A stretch of 34,331 bases of DNA, taken from the NCBI GenBank assembly GCA_014382125.1, contig JACNKI010000086.1, positions 1 to 34,331 of the forward strand. The letters run 5' to 3'. The notes under the pieces were generated by a model. It ran no database searches. It had not been told where the DNA came from and saw only the letters and a program-made list of their open reading frames with translations. Origin of the DNA: Bacteroidota bacterium. GTDB taxonomy: Bacteria > Bacteroidota > Bacteroidia > Bacteroidales > FEN-979. This document shows positions 2,487-5,397 of the stretch, piece after piece (position 1 is the stretch's first letter; every line of letters begins with the position of its first letter). The position numbers and the translations under genes are program-made.

Positions 2487-3629
2487 TTAATCGTTCATGA
2501 TTGCCCGGGCGATAATGATTTGCTGGATCTCGCTCGTACCTTCATAAATCTGAGTCAGTTTCGCATCACGCATCATACGCTCCACATGATATTCCTTCAC
2601 ATAACCATAGCCGCCATGGATCTGAACCGCTTCCGTTGTTACATACATAGCTGTTTCGCCAGCCCAGTATTTCGCCATAGCACTAGCTGTCCCATAAGGC
2701 ATTCCCTGGTCTTTCAGCCATGCTGCTTTCACAGTGAAAAATTGTGCAGCCTCGATCCGAGTATGCATTTCGGCAAGTTTGAAGCCAATCGCCTGGTGGT
2801 TGATGATCTCTGTCCCGAATGCTTTTCGTTCCTGCGCATACTGAAGAGCACGTTCGTAAGCACCCTGCGCAATTCCAACAGCCTGAGCTGCAATTCCAAC
2901 ACGGCCGCCTTCTAACGTCTTCATGGCCATTTTGAATCCAAAACCGTCATCGCCAATCCGGTTCTCCTTGGGAACCTTCACGTCGTTAAACATAACAGAA
3001 TGAGTGTCGGAACTACGCATACCCATCTTGTCTTCATGAGGTCCGAGGGAGATGCCTGGAGAGTCTTTATCCACAATCAGGGCATTGATCCCACGATGCT
3101 TCTTGTCAGGATGTGTTTGTGCGATAAGAATATATGTGGATGCACAATTTGCACTGGTAATCCAGTTCTTGGTGCCATTAACCAGGTAGTAATCTCCCTT
3201 ATCTTCTGCTGTCGTGCGTTGTGATGTGGCATCCGATCCGGCATCCGGTTCAGAGAGTAAAAAGGCTCCAATCTTTGTTCCATTTGCCAGAGGTTTCAGG
3301 TATTTGTCTTTTTGCTCTTCCGTTCCAAACTCTTCAAGTTCGTAACAGACAAGTGAGTTATTAACAGACACAATAACCCCTATAGATGCGTCTACCTTCG
3401 AAAACTCTTCCACCGCAAGGACATAGGAAACCGTATCCATACCTCCTCCTTCATATTTGGTGTCAACGGTCATCCCCATGAAGCCTAGTTCGCTTATTGC
3501 TTTTACGTGCTGCGTAGGGAATTCACATGTGGTGTCGCGTTCGATTACATCTTTGATCAGTTCCCGTTCAGCGTAATCACGAGCGGCTTGCTGGATCATC
3601 AATTGTTCTTCAGTAAATTCGAAATTCAT
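2487..3629 (-). CDS. Acyl-CoA dehydrogenase (short/branched-chain type)
   Basis: 380 aa; GAFLLSEPDAGSDA, NGTKNWITSANCA and IHGGYGYVKEYHVERMMRDAKLTQIYEGTSEIQ motifs. Confidence 0.93.
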   Translation of the reverse strand: MNFEFTEEQLMIQQAARDYAERELIKDVIERDTTCEFPTQHVKAISELGFMGMTVDTKYEGGGMDTVSYVLAVEEFSKVDASIGVIVSVNNSLVCYELEEFGTEEQKDKYLKPLANGTKIGAFLLSEPDAGSDATSQRTTAEDKGDYYLVNGTKNWITSANCASTYILIAQTHPDKKHRGINALIVDKDSPGISLGPHEDKMGMRSSDTHSVMFNDVKVPKENRIGDDGFGFKMAMKTLEGGRVGIAAQAVGIAQGAYERALQYAQERKAFGTEIINHQAIGFKLAEMHTRIEAAQFFTVKAAWLKDQGMPYGTASAMAKYWAGETAMYVTTEAVQIHGGYGYVKEYHVERMMRDAKLTQIYEGTSEIQQIIIARAIMND

Positions 3630-3658
3630 TGGTTCAGAGATTTAAAATTTGTGTCTTT

Positions 3659-3666
3659 CAAAAGTA
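3659..3666 (-). promoter_or_regulatory. Possible Bacteroidota -7 element (TACTTTTG) upstream of the acyl-CoA dehydrogenase
   Basis: Minus strand TACTTTTG, 29 nt before the ATG; no well-spaced -33 TTTG (nearest is N15). Confidence 0.4.
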
Positions 3667-3689
3667 CATCATTTCTTTGAACAAAAAAA

Positions 3690-3823
3690 CAGAAAAGAAA
3701 AACCCACCAGAGGTGGGCTTTTCTTCCTCCGCGTTATCGGAGGTGTCATGAAAGAAACCAATAAAAAGAAACCAAATTTAAGAGTATTAACCTTCCTGTA
3801 ACATAAATTACCATGCAAATATA
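3690..3823 (-). ncRNA. Candidate small RNA or attenuator leader: promoter, short ORF, hairpin, intrinsic terminator
   Basis: Minus strand TTTG-N19-TATATTTG promoter (3816..3846), 22-codon ORF complement(3746..3814), hairpin CCTCCG-ATAACG-CGGAGG (3726..3743), terminator AAAAGCCCACC-TCT-GGTGGGTTTTTCTTTTC. Confidence 0.5.
3698..3722 (-). terminator. Intrinsic terminator, better formed on the minus strand
   Basis: Minus RNA AAAAGCCCACC-UCU-GGUGGGUUUUU: the position that is a G-U wobble on the minus strand is an A-C mismatch on the plus strand; T-rich tract follows on the minus strand. Confidence 0.6.
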
Positions 3824-3846
3824 ATTAAATTTAGACTAATTCCAAA
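3816..3846 (-). promoter_or_regulatory. Bacteroidota-type promoter, TTTG-N19-TATATTTG
   Basis: Read on the minus strand: TTTG GAATTAGTCTAAATTTAAT TATATTTG; matches the TTTG-N(about 19)-TAnnTTTG consensus. Confidence 0.6.
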
Positions 3847-4047
3847 TATTATTTTAATCTTTTTTAAATAAAAATTTTATATTTAACAAGAAATCCAAGA
3901 TGCAACCAAGTTCTTATAGCTGGTTCTACCTTATTTTAAGATTTTTTTCTCTTTTCTTACCAACCATGAATAGCGTTTGCAATGGTATTGAAAATAGGAA
4001 GGCAGCTGAAAAATTCCTAATATTGCAGCTAATTTAAACGATGAATT

Positions 4048-5397
4048 ATGAGAAAATTATCTGTGATTTTACTGGTTAGTATCTTTACTGCCATTTCACT
4101 TCAAGCTCAGGATGAAGGAGTTAAAAAACCAAAGTTTGGGATCGAATTATCCGGTTTTATCAAAACAGATATATTCTTTGATTCCCGTCAGGTGATCACA
4201 GCCCGGCAAGGTCATTGGCTGCTATATCCGGCGAATGAGAAACTGGATGCCGATGGAAAAGACATCAACGCCAAGTGGAACTACAACATTCTTTCGATAC
4301 AAACACGTATAGCCGGTTCAATCTGGGGCCCGGATGTTCTTGGCGCAAGGTCTTCAGCCTATGTTGAGGGGGCATTTTTCGGGAACATCAATCCTGCGAT
4401 CAATACATTTCGACTGCGACAAGCATTCATCAAGCTCAACTGGAAAACCACAGAGCTGTTAACCGGACAAACATGGCATCCGATGTTTTCGCTCGATTGC
4501 TTTCCCGGCACGGTTTCTTTCAATACCGGAGCCCCTTTTGTGGTCTTTACCCGGAATCCTCAAATACGCCTCACACAGAAGCTCGGGAAGTTTAAGCTAC
4601 AGTTGGCTGCACTTTCCCAGGTGGACTTTGTCAGTACCGGTCCTGATGGGCCAAACACAAAATATCTGCGAAATTCTGTGTTACCGGAACTCGATTTACA
4701 GCTTCAGTTCAAGACGGCCAATAATGCTATGGGTACATCAATCGTGATTGGAGCAGGCATTGACTTTATGATGTTAACACCCCGATTGGCTACCACAGTT
4801 ACCACATCACCTGCTTATGACACTGTGATCAATGGAATTGTAGAGCATGTGGATGCCATAACACAGGACTACAAAACCAACACGAAGACATCAGCATTTG
4901 CTTATAACTTCTACACCAAATTGAAATTTCGCCCGATCACGATTAAACTGGCTGCACAGTATGGAGGAAACAATTATTCCTTCACGATGTTAGGGGGCTA
5001 TGCAGTGAAGCGTATCACAGATTCGGCCAAAGGGTATGTGGACTATGCCAATGTTCGTTCATGTGCCGTATGGGGAGAGATTCACACCAATGGAAAGCAC
5101 TGGCAAACCGGTATATTTGGTGGATTCACAAAAAATCTTGGTGCTGGGGTAACTTTGTATGATAAAAATAACGATCCCACCGATCCAGAATATTTAATGT
5201 ATGTCAGAGGTGCAGACATCGACTACGTTTGGCGCGTATCACCACGGTTGGTCTATAATATCCAAAAACTAAGAATTGCGGCTGAGTTTGAGTACACTGT
5301 TGCCGGGTATGGAACTACTACGCCAAAAGGGTATGTTTCCAATCCAAAAGCTGTTGGAAATGTGAGAGCGTTACTGGCGTTCTTCTATTTTTTCTAG
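4048..5397 (+). CDS. Outer-membrane beta-barrel (porin-like) protein
   Basis: 449 aa; signal peptide MRKLSVILLVSIFTAISLQAQ, many alternating aromatic/hydrophobic strands, C-terminal aromatic FFYFF. Confidence 0.65.
   Translation: MRKLSVILLVSIFTAISLQAQDEGVKKPKFGIELSGFIKTDIFFDSRQVITARQGHWLLYPANEKLDADGKDINAKWNYNILSIQTRIAGSIWGPDVLGARSSAYVEGAFFGNINPAINTFRLRQAFIKLNWKTTELLTGQTWHPMFSLDCFPGTVSFNTGAPFVVFTRNPQIRLTQKLGKFKLQLAALSQVDFVSTGPDGPNTKYLRNSVLPELDLQLQFKTANNAMGTSIVIGAGIDFMMLTPRLATTVTTSPAYDTVINGIVEHVDAITQDYKTNTKTSAFAYNFYTKLKFRPITIKLAAQYGGNNYSFTMLGGYAVKRITDSAKGYVDYANVRSCAVWGEIHTNGKHWQTGIFGGFTKNLGAGVTLYDKNNDPTDPEYLMYVRGADIDYVWRVSPRLVYNIQKLRIAAEFEYTVAGYGTTTPKGYVSNPKAVGNVRALLAFFYFF

Follow-up and report, generated by a model that had tools for sequence, protein, structure and literature searches.

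A minus-strand promoter-hairpin-terminator unit in a Bacteroidota genome is very probably what is left of a lipoprotein gene after deletion

The window analyzed here is a stretch of 34,331 nucleotides from the Bacteroidota assembly GCA_014382125.1 (contig JACNKI010000086.1; genome G000). In the 418-bp gap between an acyl-CoA dehydrogenase (ACAD) gene and a divergent gene for a beta-barrel-like outer membrane protein, the minus strand carries a compact unit that is, in all likelihood, what remains of a lipoprotein transcription unit whose coding part was lost here and is present in sister species. The deletion that produced this remnant is probably recent.

The minus-strand unit and its counterparts in related genomes

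A preliminary description of this gap had reported a promoter, a 22-codon frame, a stem-loop and a terminator, and had read them as an attenuator or a small RNA (sRNA) gene. We found all four elements where they had been placed (Table 1). TTTG (3846-3843) is separated by a 19-nt spacer from TATATTTG, thereby forming a promoter of the Bacteroidota type (TTTG-N19-TATATTTG), for which the consensus TTTG / TAnnTTTG is documented (PMC7366714; PMC9723704). A sigma-70 promoter scan is uninformative for Bacteroidota. The 22-codon frame extends from an ATG (3814-3812) to a TGA (3748-3746) located 2 nt before stem-loop 1, and the terminator core is followed by a T-rich tract. An IcmF-like ORF (2472-1) lies downstream of ACAD. 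A search of Rfam returned no match in the window at gathering threshold, and only chance-level matches at E <= 10.

Table 1. Predicted features of the minus-strand unit and its surroundings, in window positions
Feature	Position	Strand	Basis
Acyl-CoA dehydrogenase (ACAD) gene	2487..3629	-	Pfam acyl-CoA dehydrogenase domains; protein 96% identical in G005
ACAD's own promoter/leader, with -7 element TACTTTTG (3666-3659)	3630..3684	-	52/54 sites identical to G005
Intrinsic terminator, core CCCACC-TCT-GGTGGG (3717-3703) plus A/U extension	3693..3727	-	Fold; compensatory change
Stem-loop 1, CCTCCG-ATAACG-CGGAGG	3726..3743	-	Paired in G000, G004 and G005
22-codon frame MVIYVTGRLILLNLVSFYWFLS, putative chance frame across the junction	3746..3814	-	No counterpart in G004/G005; composition control; position of the -7 box
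Putative remainder of the lost gene's 3' UTR, with tandem TTGGTTTCTT repeats	3754..3783	-	Motif search and alignment
Junction segment (putative deletion scar), without detectable match in sister loci	3784..3807	-	Lies between two local alignments to G005
Promoter region putatively kept from the lost lipoprotein gene: A/T-rich block upstream; inverted repeat TTTGGAATTAGTCTAAAT (3846-3829) overlapping the -33 TTTG; -7 box TATATTTG (3823-3816)	3808..3876	-	88% identity to G005, 69 columns
Barrel/p162 intergenic remnant and probably first codons of the lost p162	3877..4045	-	Local alignment to G004
Beta-barrel-like outer membrane gene, divergent	4048..5397	+	Orthologues border this interval in G002-G005 and G009

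A DNA search of 60 relatives, which according to GTDB-derived records are uncultured Bacteroidales of lakes, sediments and similar waters, revealed that two genomes of the same genus, G005 and G004, match both halves of the query. In both genomes, the promoter half and the repeat-hairpin-terminator half lie ~800 bp apart, and the interval between them is occupied by a gene encoding a 250-aa lipoprotein. By local alignment, window positions 3876-3808 correspond to the lipoprotein promoter of G005, and positions 3783-3630 to its lipoprotein 3' UTR, terminator and ACAD leader. The 24 nt between these two blocks match nothing in G005, and the ~800 bp of G005 that contain the lipoprotein gene are missing from the window at this junction. 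In six genomes searched for the double TTGGTTTCTT motif, it was found at this locus alone in G000, G004 and G005, the other matches being at a different place in G003.

The order of an ancestral-type locus (the barrel gene in one orientation, followed by p162, the lipoprotein gene and ACAD in the other) was observed in G004, G005 and G009, the latter belonging to another genus of the family and carrying one extra gene after the barrel gene. The promoter core TTTGGAATTAGTCTAAAT is identical at 18 of 18 positions in G005 and G009 and at 17 of 18 in G004. The shared gene order and intact core in a genome of another genus indicate that presence of the cassette is the older state. In these three genomes the promoter is predicted to drive the lipoprotein gene, with the repeats, hairpins and terminator forming its 3' UTR, which ends just before ACAD in the relatives. 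G002 and G003 lack the cassette, as their gaps of ~207 and ~165 bp, respectively, contain neither its promoter nor its terminator; loss of the cassette is therefore recurrent in the genus. This comparison leaves out G001, whose contig ends too early.

Searches of the G000 assembly, which is 84% complete, gave no match for the lipoprotein or for p162; the same kind of search matched the lipoprotein in 13 of 43 genomes of the family. Furthermore, window positions ~4045-3877 aligned with G004 over the spacer between the barrel gene and p162 and the initial codons of p162, with a score of 33.5, compared to a maximum of 32.5 in 500 dinucleotide shuffles, and more weakly with G005 (score 24.5, at the 95% level). 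Taken together, these findings indicate that two coding sequences were cut out while the spacer, promoter and 3' UTR stayed. The locus has what characterizes a gene-deletion remnant: noncoding flanks are kept, the coding part is gone, and relatives have an intact gene at the corresponding position. No second copy of the unit beyond chance was found in the G000 genome, and none of the scar was recognized in an ACAD search of GTDB contigs. We also considered that the promoter might have come from a different gene of the regulon and rejected this, as the sole exact site of the core in G000 is at this locus and the similarity to the lipoprotein promoter includes the A/T block upstream.

We infer the order and age of the deletions. 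One deletion probably eliminated the bulk of p162 and ended shortly ahead of the lipoprotein promoter. Another probably removed the lipoprotein gene, beginning at approximately the transcription start and extending slightly beyond the stop codon, such that the promoter now directly abuts the 3' UTR and terminator of its own gene. The predicted transcript would begin near 3811 and end near 3694, a noncoding RNA of ~120 nt that presumably has no needed role. ACAD would be transcribed from its own promoter below the terminator, and this terminator would prevent read-through from the orphan promoter into ACAD. If the orphan promoter, a short distance upstream of ACAD, is still active, a working terminator would be expected to persist. 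The situation resembles that of Sodalis glossinidius pseudogenes (PMC7067036), in which a protein gene is lost in one lineage, regulatory sequence persists and residual transcription is possible; in contrast, nearly the whole coding sequence is gone here, leaving a clean promoter-to-terminator unit instead of a decayed ORF.

The lost lipoprotein has no match in Pfam, NCBIfam or PDB. In relatives, p162 is directly upstream of the lipoprotein gene (L009, 57-545; L043, 4391-4927) and is a short ORF that resembles a secreted protein, with a variable central part rich in Pro, Thr and Ala and no Pfam match. The beta-barrel-like protein is conserved beside ACAD in the genus and has no match in Pfam or NCBIfam. 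Throughout the family, variants of the inverted repeat TTTGGAATTAGTCTAAAT are found ahead of the lipoprotein orthologues. In G004 (L166), a site much like it also lies in front of a gene encoding a small membrane protein (MACPVINWWAVIVATVAFWVLG...), which we take to be DUF1761-like, and in G005 (L167) such a site adjoins the orthologue of that gene. TTTRGAANNNNTCTAAA gave 8 matches in three genomes and 0 for the reversed control. The inverted repeat looks like a putative operator of some regulator. In genus g1 (L009, 1490-1545; L010, 1610-1690), the terminator of the lipoprotein gene is immediately preceded by tandem TTTGGTTTCT repeats within the 3' UTR, and in G009 (L048, downstream of the lipoprotein gene) the motif occurs twice between the hairpins. 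In intact relatives, this repeat region could be a candidate 3' UTR-derived RNA.

The short reading frame and the dehydrogenase promoter

The 22-codon frame had been described as a leader ORF rich in aromatic and branched-chain residues, a view that did not withstand comparison with shuffled sequence and with relatives. The gap contains 2 ATG-initiated ORFs of at least 20 codons, compared to a mean of 1.06 in the shuffled gap. F/Y/W/L/I/V codons account for 15 of 21 in the frame, with a shuffle mean of 12.8 and equally high counts in 16% of composition shuffles; this richness is explained by a T content of 51%. The frame has no counterpart in G004 or G005 and is formed only across the deletion junction, and its TGA sits in the 3' UTR block TTTCATGA, which is identical in G000, G004 and G005. 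In Flavobacterium psychrophilum, the -7 box covers positions -12 to -5 (PMC9723704). The same spacing would put +1 at ~3811 and the ATG at -3 to -1, outside the predicted transcript, in line with an earlier caution that the ATG lies at or near the start site. Judged from these alignments, the frame is an accident of the deletion.

We observed that ACAD has its own -7 element (TACTTTTG) downstream of the terminator, as the preliminary description had allowed for. This element is conserved in G001-G005, including the cassette-less G002 and G003, and none of the 54 leader sites compared carries a G000-specific change. Such a conserved element below the terminator makes attenuation very unlikely. 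In the attenuator reading, a leader peptide with aromatic and branched-chain codons would govern read-through into ACAD and the IcmF-like gene. What speaks for it is a stop codon close to the stem-loop, the presence of a terminator ahead of genes for acyl-CoA metabolism, and a weak sub-threshold match to the Rfam Phe_leader family that, at 20.3 bits for a gathering threshold of 55, is at chance level. Likewise, the succession of short ORF, stem-loop and terminator is that of leader-peptide attenuators (Phe_leader RF01859 and similar). However, unlike in such attenuators, the unit has no conserved translated short ORF, its start codon is predicted to lie outside the transcript, and its codon usage shows no enrichment beyond composition. 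Furthermore, the minimum free energy (MFE) and centroid folds both keep two independent hairpins, in which no alternative antiterminator fold was seen, in agreement with an earlier remark that no convincing antiterminator pairing could be found, and ACAD does not appear to depend on read-through. The comparison with relatives already contradicts attenuation, which we hold to be almost certainly wrong.

Hairpin pairing, conservation and the orphan transcript

The putative transcript folds more stably than its shuffled versions (z = -3.9 for 123 nt and -4.9 for 118 nt, with 0 of 200 shuffles as stable), which is accounted for by the 6-bp stem-loop and the terminator. Stem-loop 1 keeps its pairing in G000, G004 and G005, although two of its base pairs differ at both positions and G000 has lost a pair that closes the loop, and the terminator shows a compensatory G-C to A-U change between G000 and G004/G005. 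In a covariation check of orthologous regions, as proposed earlier, with rows hand-trimmed to the two hairpins, 97% of pairs are kept across three species and three are altered on both sides; with only three sequences, the covariation score was reached by 35 of 500 shuffles. This pattern suggests a role for the 3' UTR structure in the ancestral mRNA rather than one for the orphan RNA.

Between G000 and G005, the kept blocks are 88% and 85% identical, compared to 57% and 43% at 4-fold sites. Conservation this far above neutral sites could reflect either a deletion that took place rather recently, late in the branch, or constraint that persists. The promoter block accumulated 4 changes on the G000 branch and 3 on the G005 branch; for the 3' UTR, in which few sites are available, these numbers are 8 and 2.

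Could the deletion exist only in the assembled contig? The scar is seen in one genome only, and its assembly is fragmented (243 contigs, 84% complete). However, one contig contains two separate non-repeat junctions with correct synteny on both sides, the kept blocks carry G000-specific substitutions, lipoprotein and p162 matches are absent elsewhere in the assembly, and G002 and G003 display a parallel loss. An assembly artefact is consequently very improbable.

An sRNA gene was the other reading offered by the preliminary description, and part of it stands: the unit is self-contained, with its own predicted promoter and intrinsic terminator, and would be able to give an RNA of ~120 nt. It is not conserved as a stand-alone element, a form found only in G000, as relatives carry either the full gene (G004, G005 and G009) or no cassette (G002 and G003). 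Similarly, promoter and hairpins are kept in relatives as parts of the lipoprotein gene (G004 and G005, with the core in G009), but the leader frame is not. The RNA may nevertheless have been taken over from the gutted mRNA, its promoter, stem-loop and terminator being kept by selection for a regulatory role. In favor of this unlikely scenario, the two deletions left a complete promoter-to-terminator unit, pairing was maintained through the three double-sided changes, the promoter did not evolve faster on the G000 branch, the fold is stable (z = -4.9), and Bacteroides commonly has terminator-bearing sRNAs that come from 3' UTRs or intergenic regions (PMC7366714). Conversely, the stand-alone unit is confined to one genome, G002 and G003 lost the unit entirely, the 3' UTR changed more on the G000 branch, and the compensatory changes may predate the deletion. 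The unit resembles Bacteroidota sRNAs such as GibS and the BTnc candidates of B. thetaiotaomicron (PMC7366714) in its TAnnTTTG-type promoter, length of ~120 nt, intrinsic terminator and 3' UTR-derived sequence; unlike them, it has no Rfam match and is not conserved as a stand-alone unit. We consider it distinctly unlikely that an sRNA is being born here, loss of the ORF having placed a regulated promoter in front of a structured 3' UTR with its terminator, and the resulting ~120-nt RNA being selected and continuing or taking over the role of the old 3' end. In the literature, we found papers on pseudogene transcription but no named case of an sRNA that originated through deletion of an ORF.

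The remains of a deleted lipoprotein unit, as we read this locus, serve as a warning that promoter, short ORF, hairpin and terminator can mimic an attenuator or an sRNA after gene excision, and comparison of congeners at the same locus decides between a scar and an attenuator or sRNA gene. If the RNA is made and kept, the unit would be a clear example of a bacterial sRNA arising from a gutted mRNA.
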